A DNA stretch of 64,000 nucleotides from Paludisphaera soli (GTDB taxonomy: Bacteria; Planctomycetota; Planctomycetia; Isosphaerales; Isosphaeraceae): the NCBI RefSeq assembly GCF_011064595.1, contig NZ_JAALJI010000025.1:1-64000 (forward strand), written 5' to 3'. How positions within the stretch are numbered: position 1 is the stretch's first letter; the number at the start of each line of letters is the position of its first letter. Positions 7,469 to 57,715 of the stretch are shown here, piece by piece. A program made the translations under genes and the position numbers. A model generated the notes under the pieces. It saw only the letters and a program-made list of their open reading frames with translations. It had not been told where the DNA came from and ran no database searches.

Positions 7469-8932
7469 TCAGGCCAGCAGCTTGGTGCAGACCTGGCCTT
7501 CGTTGACGGTCGGCCGTTCGGGGCGGCCCTGGTGGCGGTAGATGAGCCGCGTGTGGTCGGCGCCCAGGCAGTGGAGGATCGTGGCGTGCAGGTCGTGGAC
7601 GTGCAGCCGGTCCTCGATCGCGTGCAGGCCGGCCTCGTCGGTCTTGCCCAGGGTGATCCCGGGCTTGATCCCGCCGCCGGCCATCCACATCGTGAAGCCG
7701 TTGGCGTTGTGGTCGCGGCCGTCCCCCTTCTCGGACATCGGCGTGCGGCCGAACTCGCCCCCCCAGACGACCAGGGTGGAATCCAGCAGCCCGCGCCGCT
7801 TGAGGTCCTTCAGCAGGCCGGCGACCGGCTTGTCGCTGGCCAGGCAGTTCTTGCCGTGGTTCCCCTCGATGTCCTGGTGGGCGTCCCACTTGGAGCCGGC
7901 GCCGCAGTAGAGCTGCACGAACCGCACCCCGCGCTCGACCAGTCGGCGGGCGAGAAGGCAGTTGCGGCCCATGCTCTCCGTGACCGGGTCGTCCACGCCG
8001 TAGAGGGCCAGCGTCTCGGCCGACTCCCGCGCCAGGTCGACGGCCTCGGGGGCCTCGGCCTGCATGCGAAAGGCCAGCTCGTAGCTCTTGATGCGGGCGT
8101 CCAGCTCGGTCTGGTCGGGGCGGGCGTCCTGGTGGCGGCGGTTCAGGCGTTCCAGGAGCCCGAGCTTCGCCCGCTGGCGGGCGTCGTCGATGGTCGAAGG
8201 GGGGCGGAGGTGGGCGATCGGCTCGTCGCCACTGTTGATCCGCGTCCCCTGGTAGAGCGCGGGCATGAAGCCGGTGCCCCAGTTGCGGGGGCCGCCGGCG
8301 ACGAGCGACTTGGGGTAGTCCTGCAGGACGACGTACCCGGGGAGGTCCTGATTCTCGGTCCCCAGGCCGTAGCTGACCCAGCTCCCCAGCGAGGGCCGGC
8401 CGCTGCGGGTGGACCCGGTGTTCATCTGGCAGACGCCGTTGACGTGGTTCAGGCCGTCGGCCCAGCACGACCGGATGATCGCCAGGTCGTCCACGCACTC
8501 GGCGGTGTGCGGCAGCCAGTCGCTGACCCACGCGCCGCTCTCGCCGTGGCGCTTCCACTTGCGCTTCGAGGGGAGGATCGGCGAGTAGAACTCGCCCATC
8601 GGCGTGATGACCGGCTTGAAGCTGGCGGGGATCGGCTTGCCGGCCAGCTCGTTCAGGAGCGGCTTGGGGTCGAACAGGTCCATCTGGCTCGGCCCCCCTT
8701 CCATGAACAGGAAGATGACGCTCTTGGCCTTCGGCTCGTGCGTCCAGGGGGCGCTCGCCGGCGCGCCGGGGATGGCGACGTTCGCCGCCGCCGCTCCCGC
8801 GTTCGACTCCCGCGCCAGCAGGTCCAGCAACGGCAGCGCGCCGAACCCCCCGGCGGCCTGGAGCAGCCAGTCCCGCCGCGAGAGGGGCGTCGTGCTGTGC
8901 GGGACGATCGGGCTCGGGTCGCGCGGGGTCAT
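7469..8932 (-). CDS. DUF1501 family exported protein
   Basis: 487 residues. A twin-arginine-like segment (SRRDWLLQAAGGFGALPLL, about 18-36) suggests Tat export. The body carries the DUF1501 hallmarks FLFMEGGPSQMDLFDPKP, VVWGGEFGRTP and GRDHN, related to the alkaline phosphatase/sulfatase fold. In planctomycetes these proteins are normally encoded directly after a PSD1 cytochrome protein, and that gene is upstream here (9336-11864, same strand). The actual reaction is not established for the family; hydrolysis of a phosphate or sulfate ester is only a fold-based guess. The pair is split by a 403-base spacer holding three repeat units. Confidence 0.9.
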   Translation of the reverse strand: MTPRDPSPIVPHSTTPLSRRDWLLQAAGGFGALPLLDLLARESNAGAAAANVAIPGAPASAPWTHEPKAKSVIFLFMEGGPSQMDLFDPKPLLNELAGKPIPASFKPVITPMGEFYSPILPSKRKWKRHGESGAWVSDWLPHTAECVDDLAIIRSCWADGLNHVNGVCQMNTGSTRSGRPSLGSWVSYGLGTENQDLPGYVVLQDYPKSLVAGGPRNWGTGFMPALYQGTRINSGDEPIAHLRPPSTIDDARQRAKLGLLERLNRRHQDARPDQTELDARIKSYELAFRMQAEAPEAVDLARESAETLALYGVDDPVTESMGRNCLLARRLVERGVRFVQLYCGAGSKWDAHQDIEGNHGKNCLASDKPVAGLLKDLKRRGLLDSTLVVWGGEFGRTPMSEKGDGRDHNANGFTMWMAGGGIKPGITLGKTDEAGLHAIEDRLHVHDLHATILHCLGADHTRLIYRHQGRPERPTVNEGQVCTKLLA

Positions 8933-12553: not shown

Positions 12554-14773
12554 TCATGGGGTTGGGGCCGAGCGGCGGCGGCCCAGGATCAGGTAGGAGG
12601 CGAGGTCGGAGTAGTCATCGGTCCAGGGGGAGGATCCGGCACGGATTCGGGAGGCCAGCCAGGGCTCCGGAGGAGGTTCGGTCCCGGGCTCGATCATCAC
12701 GGCCCAGATCGAGGGCTGCCAGCCGATCGCTCGGGCGTCAGGGGGGGCGTCCAGGTCGTACCGGACCCGGCAGGCGAGGCCGGCGTCGGCGGCCTGGCGG
12801 GCCATCAGGGGTTCCAGGTCCAGGTAGCGGTTGGTGATGTTGAAGGCCAGCAAGCCCCCCGGGGCCAGGCGGCTCCGGTACAGGGCGAGGGCCTCGCGGG
12901 AGAGCAGATGGACGGGCACGGCGTCGGAGCTGAAGGCGTCCAGCACGATCAGGGCGAAGCCCCCCTGCGCCCCGGCGGCCAGGCGGAGGCGGGCGTCCCC
13001 CTCGACGACCGACACCTCGGCCCCTCGGCGGCGGGCGTCGGCCAGGTAGGTGAAACAGGAGGGGTCCTCGGCGACCCGGGCCACGGCGGGGTCGATCTCG
13101 TAGAACGTCCAGTCCTGCCCCGGCCGGGCGTAGCAGGCCAGGGTCCCCGTGCCCAGGCCGACGACCGCCACCTTCGCCTCGGGACGGTCCAGGCCGAACG
13201 CGCCGGAATTCAGCAGCCCGCCGATCGGCCCCGACCGCGTGAAATAGGTCGAGGGCTCCTCGCGGAGAATCGGGTCCAGGCTCTGCTGGCCGTGCAGGGT
13301 GCTGCCGTGCATCAGGCGACGGGAACGACTCCCGGCGTCCTCCAGGACCCGGAGCGCCCCGAAGAAGTTCCGGCCTCGGCGGACGACCTCGCCCCCCCGG
13401 TCGGGCGCCAGGCCCCCGGCCAGCAGCACGGCGCCGATCGTCAGGGCGAACCGCAAGGGGCGGGCCCCGGCCTTCCAGACCGCCAGGACCCCCAGCCCCG
13501 TCGCCAGGACCAAAGCGATCGCGCCCAGGGCCGATTCCCCCAGGTCCAGCCGGGTCAGCAGCCCGCCCGTCCCCGCCACGACCGCCGGGATCGCCGCCTC
13601 GCGGGCCGGGCTCCGTCCCCGCTCGCCCCCCGGCCGCGCCGCGAACGCCAGGCAGGCGAGGAACAGGGCCAGGGGATACTCCACCATCCGGTCGAACAGC
13701 AGGGGGGCCAGGATCGCGCAAAACAGGCTCCCCAGGACCCCACCCAGGCCGATCGCCAGGTAGAACGCCGTCAGCCGACGGGCGTCCGGGCGCGACTCCG
13801 CCAGCCGATGGTGGGCGATCAGGGCCCCGACGAAGAACGTCGCCAGGTGCAGCGGGGCCCAGGCCAGGTGGACGAACCCCGCCCCCAGCACCAGCGCCAG
13901 GGCCGCCGCCAGCCAGGGGAAGGTCGGCCCCAGCGTCCTGGTCCAGCGCCCTCCCACGCCCGCGAACGCCAGGATGTAGGTGACCAGGTACACCCCCAGC
14001 GGGATCGTCCAGAGGAGCGGCATCGGGGCCAGGTCGGTCGTCAGGTGGGTCGTCAGGGCCAGGAGCCAGAGCGCGGGGAGCGCCGCCAGGGCCACCCAGC
14101 GGAGGAGGTCGCCGGCCGCGACGGGGGGGGCGCGACGTTCGACCGCCGGCCCGCCGGACCGCCAGGCGGTCGCGGCGCAGGCGAGCGTCAACGCCGACGA
14201 GGCCCCGAACCCGACCGCCCAGGCCCGCGTCTGCCAGGCCAGCGTCGACAGCGGCTCGATCAGGAGCGGGTACGCCGCCAGCGCCGCCAGGTTCCCGGCG
14301 CAGCTCGCGGCGTAGAGGGCGAACGGGTCGCGCGCGGGCCGGCCTTCGGCGTCGGCCGTCAGTGAGAACCAGCGCTGGAGCAGGGGGGAGGTCGCCGCGA
14401 TCAGCACCAGCGGCAGCCCGGCCGAGGCGGCCAGCCTGGCGAACAGCCAGAGCCCCGGCCCCGCGCCGGCGTCCGAGGTCGAAGGGCCCTCGACCGGGAG
14501 CCGGATCGGCAGGAAGGCGAGGGCCGCGACCGTGAGCAGCCCGTGCAGCGCGGCCTGGCCCCGGACGCCCAGCCGGGATGTGCTGGCGTGTGCGTAGGCG
14601 TAGCCGGCCAGGAGCGCGGCCTGGAAGAACAGCATGCACGCGTTCCAGACCCCCGGCGTCCCGCCGAAGGCCGGCAGCAGCATCTTGCCCACCATCGGCT
14701 GGACCGCGAACAGGAGCGCCGAGGCCCCCAGCACGGCAGCCCCGAACAGCCCGATCAAGCCCTTCGTCTTCAT
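12554..14773 (-). CDS. Membrane-fused spermidine synthase-like protein
   Basis: 739 residues. The N-terminus (FAVQPMVGKMLLPAFGG, then PGVWNACMLFFQ) is the signature of fused-MFS/spermidine synthase proteins, followed by about 11-12 membrane segments to about residue 440. The C-terminal Rossmann domain has VAVVGLGTGTLACYA, an FYEIDP strand end and LDAFSSDAVPVHLL at the catalytic region. It probably binds decarboxylated SAM or a similar cofactor at the membrane; the substrate is unknown. A GAGGGG ribosome-binding site lies just before the ATG. It is divergent from the ABC exporter, with 119 bases between starts. It is only distantly similar to the other fusion at 4740-7313. Confidence 0.88.
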   Translation of the reverse strand: MKTKGLIGLFGAAVLGASALLFAVQPMVGKMLLPAFGGTPGVWNACMLFFQAALLAGYAYAHASTSRLGVRGQAALHGLLTVAALAFLPIRLPVEGPSTSDAGAGPGLWLFARLAASAGLPLVLIAATSPLLQRWFSLTADAEGRPARDPFALYAASCAGNLAALAAYPLLIEPLSTLAWQTRAWAVGFGASSALTLACAATAWRSGGPAVERRAPPVAAGDLLRWVALAALPALWLLALTTHLTTDLAPMPLLWTIPLGVYLVTYILAFAGVGGRWTRTLGPTFPWLAAALALVLGAGFVHLAWAPLHLATFFVGALIAHHRLAESRPDARRLTAFYLAIGLGGVLGSLFCAILAPLLFDRMVEYPLALFLACLAFAARPGGERGRSPAREAAIPAVVAGTGGLLTRLDLGESALGAIALVLATGLGVLAVWKAGARPLRFALTIGAVLLAGGLAPDRGGEVVRRGRNFFGALRVLEDAGSRSRRLMHGSTLHGQQSLDPILREEPSTYFTRSGPIGGLLNSGAFGLDRPEAKVAVVGLGTGTLACYARPGQDWTFYEIDPAVARVAEDPSCFTYLADARRRGAEVSVVEGDARLRLAAGAQGGFALIVLDAFSSDAVPVHLLSREALALYRSRLAPGGLLAFNITNRYLDLEPLMARQAADAGLACRVRYDLDAPPDARAIGWQPSIWAVMIEPGTEPPPEPWLASRIRAGSSPWTDDYSDLASYLILGRRRSAPTP

Positions 14774-49847: not shown

Positions 49848-51344
<1,497 letters not shown>

Positions 51345-52537: not shown

Positions 52538-53011
52538 ATGGCGATCGACGCGTTGATCCAGCGCAAGGTGATGGGGCGGTTCGCGACCGGGGTGACGGTG
52601 GTGACCACCGGCGGCTCGATGGGCCTGCACGGGCTGACGGCCAACGCGGTGACCTCGCTCTCGCTCGACCCGCCCCTGATCCTCGTCGCCGTGGACAGGC
52701 GGTCGCAGACCCTGGAATTCATCAAGGCCAACCGCTGCTTCGCCGTCAACATCCTCCGGCTCGATCAGGAGGAGATCTCCCAGAGGTTCGCCCGGCCCGG
52801 GCCCAAGGACTTCCTCGGCCTCGACCTGACCACCGACGCCACCGACGCCCCGATCATCGCCGGCTGCCTCGCCTACGTCGACTGCCGGCTCCACGACGTC
52901 CTCCCCGGCGGCGACCACGAGATCTTCGTCGGCGAGGTCGTCGGCGGCGCGGCGCACGATGGCGAGCCGCTGCTTTACTTCGCCGGCGGCTATCGAAGGC
53001 TGGGCGGCTGA
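52538..53011 (+). CDS. Flavin reductase family protein
   Basis: 157 residues with the FMN-binding split-barrel pattern: VMGRFATGVTVVTTGG near the N-terminus, GLTANAVTSLSLDPPLILVAVDR, FAVNILRLDQEEISQRFA and a C-terminal GGDHEIFVGEVV. It reduces free FMN with NAD(P)H, usually for a partner monooxygenase, but none is encoded here. The start ATG at 52538 follows GGCCGGAGG. The downstream MFS gene begins one base after its stop, so the two are cotranscribed. Confidence 0.9.
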   Translation: MAIDALIQRKVMGRFATGVTVVTTGGSMGLHGLTANAVTSLSLDPPLILVAVDRRSQTLEFIKANRCFAVNILRLDQEEISQRFARPGPKDFLGLDLTTDATDAPIIAGCLAYVDCRLHDVLPGGDHEIFVGEVVGGAAHDGEPLLYFAGGYRRLGG

Positions 53012-53012
53012 C

Positions 53013-54473
53013 GTGGCCGCGACGACGACGCCCCCCGAACAGCCCGAGGCGTCGCCCCGAGGGCTCGGCTTCTCCCGGTCCCACTGGTGGATCCTGGCGG
53101 CCGCCGCGCTCGGCTGGATGTTCGACGCCATGGATCAACGCCTGTTCATCCTGGCCCGGACCCCGGCCCTCCGCGACCTCGCCCCCGGGACCGACCCGGC
53201 CGACCTGCCGACGCTCGCCGGCTGGGCCACGGCCCTGTTCATCGCCGGCTGGGCCACCGGCGGACTGGCCTTCGGCCTGGTGGGCGACCGCTTCGGCCGG
53301 GTGCGGACGATGGGGCTGACGATCCTGATGTACTCCGTGTTCACCGGGCTCTCGGGCCTGGCGCGGAGCTGGCCGGAGTTCGCGGCCTACCGCTTCCTCT
53401 GCGGCATGGGCATCGGCGGCGAGTACGCCGCGGGCGTCGCCCTGGTGGCCGAGGCCATGCCCGCCCGCTCCCGCGCCTTCGCGCTGGGGCTCGTCCAGGC
53501 GGCCTCCTCGGTCGGCGCCATGATCGGCTCGGGCCTGAGCGTGCTGATCGGCCCCCAGTCGCGCGTCGGCGGCTACGCGGGATGGCGGGTCCTCTTCTTC
53601 TTCGGCGTGATCCCCAGCGTCTTGCTCGTCCTGCTGCGATTCCGGGTCCCCGAGCCCGACCGCTGGCTCCGCGCCCGCGACGAGGCCCTTCAGAACCCCG
53701 AGCCCGGCCGCAAGCTGGGCGACGTCCGCGCGATCTTCGCCGACCCCGTCCTGCGCCGTCGCACCCTCATCGGCATGACCCTGGGCATGGTCGGCCAGGT
53801 CGGCCTCTGGAGCATCGGCCTTTATACGCCGGAACTCGTCCGCGACGCCCTCTTCCTGGAGCGCCGCGCCGCCGTCGCGGCGGAGCTGGCGGGGAGGGGA
53901 GGGGCCGCCTCGGCGGCGACGGCCGGCGGCCTCGACGCCCTGGCCCGCGAGTCGGCCGCGAGCACCGGGGCCGACCCCGCCGCGCTCGTCGCCCGATGGA
54001 AGGCCGAGGCCGACGGCTACGTCGGCTGGGGGACGCTCCTGCAAGACGTCGGCTCGCTCTTCGGCGCCCCCTTCTGCACCTGGATCGCCGTCCGTTACGG
54101 CCGAAGGCGCGCGTTCGCGACGGCCTACGCCATGGCGATGGCCTCGGTCTGGCTGGTCTTCGGCGGCATGTCGCAGGGCCGCGACGTCTACTGGATGCTG
54201 CCGCTGCTGGGCTTCTGCACCTGCGGGATCTTCGGCGTCATCGTCCTGTATCTCCCCGAGCTTTACCCGACCCGCCTGCGGACGACCGGCATGGGCTTCT
54301 GCTACAACATGGCCCGCTACCTGACCGCCGGGGCCCCGGTCCTGCTGGGGAGGCTGGCGATCGGCGCCGGCGGATACTCCCGCGCGGCGATCCTCATGTC
54401 GTTCATCTACGTCTTCGGCCTGGTCGTCGTCCCGTTCGCCGCCGAGACCCGAGGCCGGCCCTTGCCCGATTGA
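53013..54473 (+). CDS. MFS transporter, sugar/aromatic-acid type
   Basis: 486 residues from GTG at 53013, which follows the flavin reductase stop by one base. The first membrane helix reads WWILAAAALGWMFDAMDQRLF, and the loop GDRFGRVRTMG and YRFLCGMGIGGEYAAGVALV fit the AAHS/SP branch of MFS. The central loop (about 260-330) is extended and Ala-rich. The substrate is unknown; aromatic acids fit a partner flavin reductase but that is only inference. A start at 52959 would overlap the reductase gene. Confidence 0.85.
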   Translation: MAATTTPPEQPEASPRGLGFSRSHWWILAAAALGWMFDAMDQRLFILARTPALRDLAPGTDPADLPTLAGWATALFIAGWATGGLAFGLVGDRFGRVRTMGLTILMYSVFTGLSGLARSWPEFAAYRFLCGMGIGGEYAAGVALVAEAMPARSRAFALGLVQAASSVGAMIGSGLSVLIGPQSRVGGYAGWRVLFFFGVIPSVLLVLLRFRVPEPDRWLRARDEALQNPEPGRKLGDVRAIFADPVLRRRTLIGMTLGMVGQVGLWSIGLYTPELVRDALFLERRAAVAAELAGRGGAASAATAGGLDALARESAASTGADPAALVARWKAEADGYVGWGTLLQDVGSLFGAPFCTWIAVRYGRRRAFATAYAMAMASVWLVFGGMSQGRDVYWMLPLLGFCTCGIFGVIVLYLPELYPTRLRTTGMGFCYNMARYLTAGAPVLLGRLAIGAGGYSRAAILMSFIYVFGLVVVPFAAETRGRPLPD

Positions 54474-54504
54474 TCCGAGCCGACCGAACCGAGGAGACTC
54501 GCCC

Positions 54505-56958
54505 ATGATCCGCCCGCTCCCGGCGTCGCTCCTGTTCCTGATCGCGACCGTCGCCGTCTCGGCCGCCGAGCCCCTCGTCATTCGCGAGGGCCTGGTCCTC
54601 CCCGGCGGCCGTCGCGGCCGTCGCGAGGCGATCCCCGCCGACCCGATCGTCGCGCGGATCGTCGCCGGGACGTGGGCCTTACCGAAGGCCGGCGAGGCGG
54701 CGGACCTCGGCGACGGCCGCGAGCGCAAATGGGAGCCGATCCAGGCCGGCGACGGCGGCTTCCGCGCGGCGCCGGGCTCGTACCTCGTCGTCGACGCCGC
54801 CTCGCCCGAGGACCGGACGGCGATCCTCGAGGCCACGGGCCACGGCGCGGCCTACGTGGGCGACGAGCCCCGCGCGGGCGACGTCTACGCCAACGGCTAC
54901 GTCCGCCTCCCGATCCGGCTCCGCAAGGGGTCGAACCCGATCCTGTTCCTCGGCGGCCGGGGGCGACCGATCCCGGTCAGGCTGGCCGAGCCGAAGGCCG
55001 CCGCCGAGCTGAACGCGGGCGACGTCACCGCGCCCGACCTGATCGAAGGGCAGGGGGCCGAGGCCGACGCGGCCCTGATCGTCCTCAACACGACCGACGC
55101 GCCCGCCGAGGGCCTGGCCGTCCTCGCCCGCGTGGACGGCGGCGCGGAGGTCCGCACGCCCGTCCCGACCTTGCCGCCGCTCGCCACCCGCAAGGCCCGG
55201 TTCGCGATCCGCGCCGAGGCGAAAGTCGGCTCGGATGACCGTCCGCTGGAGGTCCGGCTCGTCGACGCCCGGGGGACGACGCTCGACGTAGCGACGATCC
55301 CGCTGCGGAACCGACGCCCCGACCAGGAGCGCAAGGTCACGTTCGTCAGCGACATCGACGGCTCCGTGCAGTATTACGGCCTCGTCCCGGCCGCTCCCGA
55401 CCCCTCGGGCGCCCGCCCCGGGATCGTCCTCTCGCTCCACGGCGCGTCGGTCGAGGCGATCGGCCAGGCGGCGGCGTATCGGCCCAAGGCGGGGCTGGCC
55501 GTCGTCGCCCCCACCAACCGCCGGCCCTACGGCTTCGACTGGGAAGACTGGGGCCGCAAGGACGCGATCGAGGTGCTGGAGAAGGCCTCCGCGACGCTCG
55601 GCGTCGACCCCGCGCGGACCTACCTGACGGGCCACTCGATGGGAGGCCATGGCACCTGGCACCTGGGCGTGACCTTCCCCGACCGCTTCGCCGCCGTCGC
55701 CCCCAGCGCCGGATGGGTCAGCATGTTCAGCTACGCCGGCGCCGCGCGCGCCGAGGCGCCCGACCTGGTGGACTAGCTGATCGCCCGCGCGGTCAACCCG
55801 AGCGACACCCTCGCCCTGGTCCGCAACCTGGAAGGGCGGGGCGTCTACGTCCTGCACGGCGACGCCGACGACAACGTGCCGGTCGCCCAGGCCCGCACCA
55901 TGCGCGAGCAGCTCGCGACGTTTCACCCCGACTTCGCCTACTACGAGCGCCCTGGGGCGGGCCACTGGTGGGGGAACGAGTGCGTCGACTGGCCCCCCCT
56001 GTTCGCCTTCCTGCGCGAACATGCGACGAAGCCCCTCGACCAACTCCGCCGCGTCGACTTCGTCACGATGAGCCCCGCCGTCTCCGCCCGCTCGGACTGG
56101 GCGACGATCGAGGCCCAGACGCAGGCCATGAAGCCGACCGCGATCCACCTGGCCTTCGACCCGGAGAAGCGCCGGTTCGAAGGCGCGACCGAGAACGTCG
56201 CCCGCCTGACCCTGGACGTCGCGGCGGCGGCCCCCGGCGCGTCGGGCCCGTTCGAGGTCGCGCTCGACGGCCAGGCGGTGGCCGGCGCGACCCCCGACGG
56301 CGGCCGGCTGCGGCTCGCGCGATCGAAGGACGGCGCCTGGTCGATCCAGGACGCGCCGTCGCCGCTGGCGCACAAGGGGCCGCACCGCGCCGGGCCGTTC
56401 AAGGAGGCGTTCCACCATCGGTTCCTGCTCGTGTACGGCACGGCCGGGACGCCCGAGGAGAACGCCTGGTCGCTGGCGCGCGCCCGCTTCGACGCCGAGA
56501 CCTTCTGGTATCGCGGCAACGGCTCGGTCGACGTGATCGCCGACGTCGCGTTCCTCGACCCGGCTCGGGCCGACGAATTCCGCGACCGGAGCGTGATCCT
56601 CTACGGCCACGCCGAGAGCCACGCCGCCTGGGGCCCGCTCCTCGGCGACGGGCCCGTGCGGGTCGGCCGAGGCGTCGCGCGGATCGGCGACCGCGAGGTC
56701 GCGGGCGACGACCTCGCCTGCCTGTTCGTCCGCCCTCGCCCCGGCAGCGACGTCGCCTCCGTCGGCGTCGTCGCGGGCACCGGCATGAAGGGCCTCCGCC
56801 TCACCGCCACGCTCCCGTACTTCGTCTCCGGCACCGGGTTCCCCGACCTGACCCTCCTCCGCGCCGGCGACGCCGACCGCCCCCCCCGCGCCGTGGCCGC
56901 CGGCTATTTCGGCGAGGACTGGGGCCTCGAATCCGGCGAGTTCGCCCGCCGCGACTGA
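54505..56958 (+). pseudogene. Prolyl oligopeptidase family gene broken by an in-frame TAG
   Basis: The reading frame is continuous from ATG 54505 to 56958 except for one TAG at 55774-55776 (codon 424). Before it come a signal peptide (LIATVAVSAAEPL), a beta domain and the nucleophile GHSMGGHGTWH (Ser378). After it, in the same frame, come LIARAVNPSDTL, HGDADDNVP with the likely catalytic Asp and GAGHWWG with the His, then a C-terminal beta domain. So the stop separates Ser from Asp and His, and neither half can hold a full triad. The bases on both sides look intact and codon use is normal. The cause may be a recent nonsense mutation or a base-call error; readthrough is less likely. Confidence 0.85.
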
Positions 56959-57232
56959 GCCCGGACTCTCCCTCACCTCGAGCCGACGCGTCGCCCCCCT
57001 TAGAGGGTCGCAGACGTGCACCTTTCGCGCCGCGAGCGAACCCCTGCGAAACGACCGCAAACCGCTCGCGCACCGAAACTTAGATCCATAAAAGGATCTT
57101 AATGCGCATACGGAATGCTAGTTATTACGGGAATTTCGGTCATTTTCGTCGAAACCCCTTTTCTTGTCGCGACCGACCCGTATAGTTCCACCGTCTGAGT
57201 CATCCCGCAGGACACCTATTAGAGGCAACGTT

Positions 57233-57715
57233 ATGAACAAGTTCTTCGCATCGGTCGCCCTCCTCGCCCTGGCTACCCCGGCGTTCGCCGCCGAGAAGGA
57301 CATCGTCGATACGGCGGTCGGTGCCGGCAGTTTCAAGACGCTCGTCGCCGCCGTCAAAGCGGCCGGGCTCGTCGAGACCCTCAAGGGCGACGGCCCGTTC
57401 ACGGTCCTGGCCCCCACCGACGAGGCGTTCGCCAAGCTGCCCGAGGGGACCGTCGAGTCCCTGCTGAAGCCCGAGAACAAGGACAAGCTGATCGCGGTCC
57501 TGACCTACCACGTCATCCCCTCGAAGGCCATGGCCGCCGACGTGGTGAAGCTCGACGGCAAGTCCGTCAAGAGCGTCCAGGGCGGGGCCGTCAAGGTCTC
57601 GGTCGACGGCAAGACCGTCATGATCAACGACGCCAAGGTCATCAAGGCCGACATCGCCTGCAGCAACGGCGTCATCCACGTCATCGACACCGTCATCCTG
57701 CCGCCCAAGGAGTGA
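57233..57715 (+). CDS. Single-domain fasciclin (FAS1) protein
   Basis: 160 residues. The signal peptide ends at PAFAAEK (about 20), and one complete FAS1 domain follows: [55 protein letters not shown] and [16 protein letters not shown]1 proteins are secreted or surface cell-adhesion modules. The start ATG at 57233 has a weak AGAGG site; a TATAGT string about 50 bases upstream may be part of a promoter. Two hairpins follow the stop. Confidence 0.93.

Follow-up and report, generated by a model that had tools for sequence, protein, structure and literature searches.

An in-frame TAG between the putative catalytic residues of an alpha/beta-hydrolase gene of Paludisphaera soli, probably a recent nonsense mutation

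Results

An interrupted hydrolase gene downstream of an MFS transporter

The window, a stretch of 64,000 nucleotides, is part of contig C116 of the Paludisphaera soli genome, a 7.97 Mb draft in 197 contigs with a completeness of 99.97%. Its plus strand contains an interrupted alpha/beta-hydrolase gene of the Peptidase_S9/Esterase type (54505..56958), whose N-terminus looks by eye like a signal peptide. The frame begins with an ATG at 54505 and comprises 818 triplets, including the terminal TGA (56956-56958) and a sole internal stop, a TAG at triplet 424 (55774..55776, plus strand) that lies outside any homopolymer. A Shine-Dalgarno-like GAGGAG, also recognized by eye, stands just 5' of the start codon (54491..54496, plus strand). 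The 5' open piece (54505..55776, plus strand) encodes 423 amino acids that include a beta-rich N-terminal region, the putative nucleophile Ser378 and the beginning of the hydrolase fold. The 3' piece continues in the same frame (55777..56958, plus strand) and carries Asp455, His487 and the C-terminal region; the open reading frame listed for this remainder begins at GTG 55876. Because each piece aligns end to end with single uninterrupted orthologues, both originate from a single gene. Reading the plus strand from 54505 to 56958 thus bore out an earlier note on this DNA, which had claimed that one TAG splits an otherwise open frame and does so between Ser378 and the Asp and His.

Upstream lies an intact MFS transporter gene (52959..54473, plus strand) that is found in all five congeners, and downstream a gene for a fasciclin-domain protein (57233-57715). 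A scan of 54300-57400 on both strands for promoters and terminators returned no site of either kind.

The catalytic domain is shared by esterases and S9 peptidases

In alignments with the window protein, Ser378, Asp455 and His487 were invariant in all 90 homologue sequences (89 distinct). This conservation, together with the motifs that we take to mark such residues (G-x-S-x-G; HG..D..VP; GAGHWW), suggests that the three form the catalytic triad. The 5' piece scored above the Pfam cut-offs for both Esterase and Peptidase_S9 (25.1 bits against 22.6 for the latter), and the 3' piece reached 19.3 bits for Peptidase_S9, under the cut-off of 22.6. In two intact congener proteins, Peptidase_S9 (PF00326) matches of 47.4 and 44.9 bits, against the same 22.6, span the site of codon 424. 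NCBIfam matches of the PHA/PHB depolymerase-type esterases were all under their cut-offs.

We further predicted a model of the read-through window protein from 36 homologues (mean pLDDT 89.4). Codon 424 falls there inside a short helix (421-427) in a variable segment between core strands. Strands 446-452 and 477-482 lie behind the stop, with the Asp and the His shortly after them. Fold matches of this model centred on the hydrolase domain (about 271-508), and those listed mainly cover about 127-508 and 271-508. The top match was the esterase domain of LC-Est1 (PDB 3wyd; Z 23.5, rmsd 2.3 over 184 residues, 30% identity), with which the S9 peptidases, at Z 23.0 and less, count as tied. In the Foldseek ranking, the esterase 3doh came first, followed by acylaminoacyl peptidases, and phmmer matched the 5' piece to the LC-Est1 domain with an E value of 9.5e-14.

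The window protein thus resembles LC-Est1 and the thermostable esterase 3doh in its catalytic alpha/beta-hydrolase domain; unlike them, it is a far longer protein, and large regions at its N- and C-terminus are left out of the alignment. With the prolyl oligopeptidase family, its intact congener orthologues have the Peptidase_S9 catalytic-domain profile in common, above cut-off. True POP, DPP and AAP enzymes carry an N-terminal beta-propeller plus an S9 hydrolase domain. The structural matches listed for the window protein lie mainly in the hydrolase domain and give no positive evidence of a beta-propeller; no propeller match was among the rows listed in whole-model searches, which are dominated by the hydrolase domain and barely cover the N- and C-terminal regions, so that such a blank does not speak for the absence of a propeller. 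The label 'prolyl-oligopeptidase' in the earlier note is a loose one: the protein matches both Peptidase_S9 and Esterase of Pfam, and in the fold comparison S9 peptidases are tied with an esterase.

The orthologue is whole in three congeners and has no internal stop among homologues

An uninterrupted orthologue in the same gene order was found in three of the five congeners (G002, G001 and G005, with 79%, 76% and 72% identity); that of G002 lies at C1:2612865-2615291. The shared order consists of glycosyltransferase-like, collagen-like and sigma-factor-like genes, as judged by eye, followed by the flavin reductase, MFS and hydrolase genes. A fasciclin gene 3' of the hydrolase was present only in the G002 stretch, and the G005 contig ends behind the hydrolase. 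The collagen-like protein of the window (49872-51344) has long Gly-Ala-Thr repeats, and its tblastn matches in three congeners reach no further than the initial 174 to 299 residues.

G003 and G004, the remaining two congeners, have the flavin reductase, the MFS transporter and the sigma-like gene, and the stretches of 14,001 and 16,001 bases that were fetched from them contained neither half of the hydrolase. The best genome-wide matches in these two genomes were distant, at 29% and 40% identity, the 40% being over a short stretch. As two of the five congeners have the neighbours and neither half, the genus can do without the gene. Since the gene also occurs in further genera of the family, in G018 likewise beside the flavin reductase, it would most simply have been lost in G003 and G004.

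A search of 59 genomes, including that of P. soli itself, gave a match in 58. Eleven long places of clear orthology, including that of the window itself, stood apart with E values of 1.4e-178 or better, and no internal stop was seen in the ten others. A contig scan confirmed at least 536 relatives. The best 80 of these 536, whose named records are largely from Planctomycetota, Verrucomicrobiota and Armatimonadota, made up the 90 homologue sequences together with 10 others. Among these sequences, L125 (a Planctomycetota MAG) and L008, which comes from G007 and thus from the same family as the window, are one and the same gene; L103 and L108, which are both counted in the 90, are 97% identical. 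None of the 90 had an in-frame stop. Position 424 is variable among them, being Ala in 21, Glu in 17, Lys in 16, Arg in 11, Gln in 9, Asp in 5, Thr in 4, Ser, Val and Leu in 2 each and Gly in 1.

A stop that occurs in none of these sequences, the three congeners included, argues against programmed or leaky UAG readthrough, by which some full-length enzyme would be made and the gene would be functional. It also argues against a two-chain enzyme, whose halves would be translated separately and then assemble, since the split is seen in none of the homologues.

Decoding machinery and possible restart sites

The genome encodes RF1 (432.9 bits against a cut-off of 423.25). ARAGORN, which covered all 55 tRNA matches of the genome, assigned a CUA anticodon to none of them and left one match without assignment. 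Two matches to the PylS domain reached about 25 bits, far below the cut-off of 178; as a control, 13 of 14 other genomes also gave some match, with one over the cut-off. In two of the 24 window genes compared (see below), a TAG immediately beyond the aligned end serves as the stop codon in place of the TGA of the orthologue, which indicates that TAG works as a terminator here. A change of genetic code was rejected on the presence of RF1, the tRNA set and these TAG terminators, and the same observations, together with the low PylS scores, weigh against readthrough of codon 424.

Two observations were made in the course of the tRNA survey. A 37-bit tRNA-like match near tRNA-Pro(GGG), at G000:C165:68105-68177 (L063 50-123, minus strand), cannot be assigned by ARAGORN, which gives its anticodon as two letters; it is perhaps a decayed or unusual copy of tRNA-Pro. 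At G000:C149:8884-9240 (L070), on a contig just 11,989 bases long, three tRNA genes for Ser, Ser and Tyr stand in a tight row, and two of them score low (44.6 and 40.7 bits); this is possibly a mobile element.

No ATG, GTG or TTG occurs in frame between the TAG and the Asp455 codon, where CTG codons are the only candidate starts; the first of the three after the TAG is a GTG at codon 458, beyond Asp455. Reinitiation was judged unlikely on this ground, with CTG left as the possible start. The same arrangement stands against the two-chain enzyme, for which a restart behind Asp455 would come too late. That both halves look constrained on the window lineage (see below) would suit two chains, as would the predicted position of codon 424 in a variable segment, on a short model helix between core strands. 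With the split in none of the homologues examined, we nevertheless regard a two-chain enzyme as exceedingly improbable.

The frame behind the TAG shows no decay

We then considered whether the reading frame bears signs of relaxed constraint. At positions with at least 95% agreement among the other sequences, the window protein departs at none of 140, compared with 0 or 1 of 140 in the three congeners and up to 10 of 142 in more distant relatives. Branch omega values were estimated from a four-species codon model, in which the long branches make the figures rough. For the whole gene, omega was 0.105 on the window lineage versus 0.075 elsewhere (p 0.11). The 5' half gave 0.131 versus 0.085 (p 0.11) and the 3' half 0.080 versus a background of 0.064 (LRT 0.43, p 0.51). 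The intact MFS neighbour, used as a control, had a similar slight excess (0.088 versus 0.066). By profile likelihood, the upper 95% limit of omega for the 3' half is about 0.15, which leaves room for no more than roughly 9% of the branch to have evolved neutrally.

By these measures, constraint still appears to act on the frame behind the TAG. This lack of decay points to a young stop, a false one or a harmless one, and the omega figures do not tell which. The intact conserved positions and a 3' omega at about background are both expected of a gene that is read through and functional, and to that extent they count against a nonsense mutation. However, a recent mutation accounts for the lack of decay equally well, and the stop is not conserved in orthologues, no dedicated decoder was found and RF1 is not missing. 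We thus consider readthrough of any kind to be highly improbable. Even more doubtful is its specific form in which near-cognate decoding of UAG, without a dedicated tRNA, is frequent enough to keep the full-length hydrolase under selection.

Other genes of the window

We also compared other genes of the window with stretches fetched from G001 and G002. Twenty-five ORF rows were picked by hand as long real genes; two of the rows are the halves of one gene, so that they represent 24 genes, all with an orthologue in those stretches. The rows left out were judged to be overlapping ORFs in other frames, duplicates from the second congener and upstream extensions, and eleven or so of them contain stops. 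For some genes, among them the collagen-like one and that at the window end, no more than about a third of the reference is aligned. In the aligned parts, the hydrolase gene was the only one interrupted, the other 23 having no internal stop or frame break.

This comparison bears on two readings. One of them is an error of sequence or assembly, or a minority variant in the consensus, in which case the gene of the living strain would be uninterrupted and the deposited base wrong. That the other 23 genes are unbroken where aligned, and that the TAG is outside any homopolymer, speaks against such an error. A sole interrupted gene among the 24, in a window that is not visibly rich in pseudogenes, is also a point against a nonsense mutation.

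Two further candidates for broken genes were examined and rejected. A seemingly broken second copy at G000:C1:669429-671021 is a paralogue, and the TGA that had been flagged is its own terminal stop. A gene at window positions 12554-14773 that had appeared broken is one open frame here and in four of the five congeners, the break being in G002. Its product has a membrane-like N-terminal part and a spermidine-synthase-like C-terminal part, as judged by eye. In G002, at about C1:2594860 (L187 about 8850-8870), a frame change that splits the gene into two pieces lies beside a G run; either G002 has a true frameshift there or its sequence contains a homopolymer error.

Discussion

Our results point to a very recent, single nonsense mutation in a dispensable hydrolase gene, a reading that we consider likely. 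The in-frame stop removes a large part of a conserved protein (triplet 424 of 818), of which uninterrupted orthologues stand at the same locus in three of five congeners. By this reading, one nonsense substitution would very recently have inactivated a vertically inherited and dispensable gene of this strain. RF1 would terminate translation at codon 424 and yield a product of 423 residues that keeps the nucleophile and has lost the last two strands of the core sheet, the Asp and the His. Such a product should be inactive, to judge from the predicted model, because it lacks these two core strands and the catalytic Asp and His; production of a useful chain from the 3' piece is not to be expected. 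We infer both that the stop is present in the DNA of the living cell and that termination takes place there.

The earlier note had placed a nonsense mutation or a base-call error first and had held readthrough and a two-chain enzyme to be less likely. Both parts of this ranking are supported, the former by a stop that is in none of the homologues examined, at a variable position and without decay downstream, and the latter by finding RF1, no CUA tRNA, and no ATG, GTG or TTG before the Asp codon. The comparison with relatives that it had suggested was run, and the stop was absent from the 90 homologue sequences and the gene whole in three of five congeners.

Deciding between a nonsense mutation and an error is less straightforward, as one genome of the species was examined and one wrong base in the consensus would account for all of our observations just as well. 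A lone substitution that comes with no further damage, and with the constraint on the 3' half not relaxed, fits an error perfectly, and the assembly is a draft of 197 contigs. Where a consensus is well covered, however, substitution errors are much rarer than strain-specific nonsense mutations. An error of this kind is thus the less likely explanation of the TAG, though by no means a negligible one.

A recent nonsense mutation would be in keeping with what is described for other prokaryotes. In the accessible text of a study of five Salmonella genomes, 346 of 378 pseudogenes carry a single inactivating mutation, which is a premature stop in 131 of these, and most pseudogenes are strain-specific with little or no acceleration (PMC2916853). 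The gene in the window shares with these single-mutation pseudogenes, as far as that text describes them, one premature stop, its occurrence in one genome, the lack of acceleration and an intact syntenic orthologue. It differs from them in its host, which we infer to be a free-living planctomycete represented by one genome of the species. Pseudogenes amount to between 1 and 5% of the genome according to the accessible portion of a survey that covered 64 prokaryotes (PMC522871). One interrupted gene per 24 compared is in keeping with this base rate, 24 being a small sample. The accessible part of an Isosphaeraceae genome paper (PMC5352709) does not mention the hydrolase gene.

The annotation of this assembly should flag the gene as disrupted and should not list its two ORFs as separate enzymes. 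Were the TAG an error, it would be a small warning about the assembly; were near-cognate readthrough true, the stop would be a new, lineage-private regulatory element. As a recent nonsense mutation, it looks like an ordinary event of a known kind and no new decoding trick. Its significance beyond annotation would then be small, as one case in which a gene that is also missing from two sister species has recently been lost.
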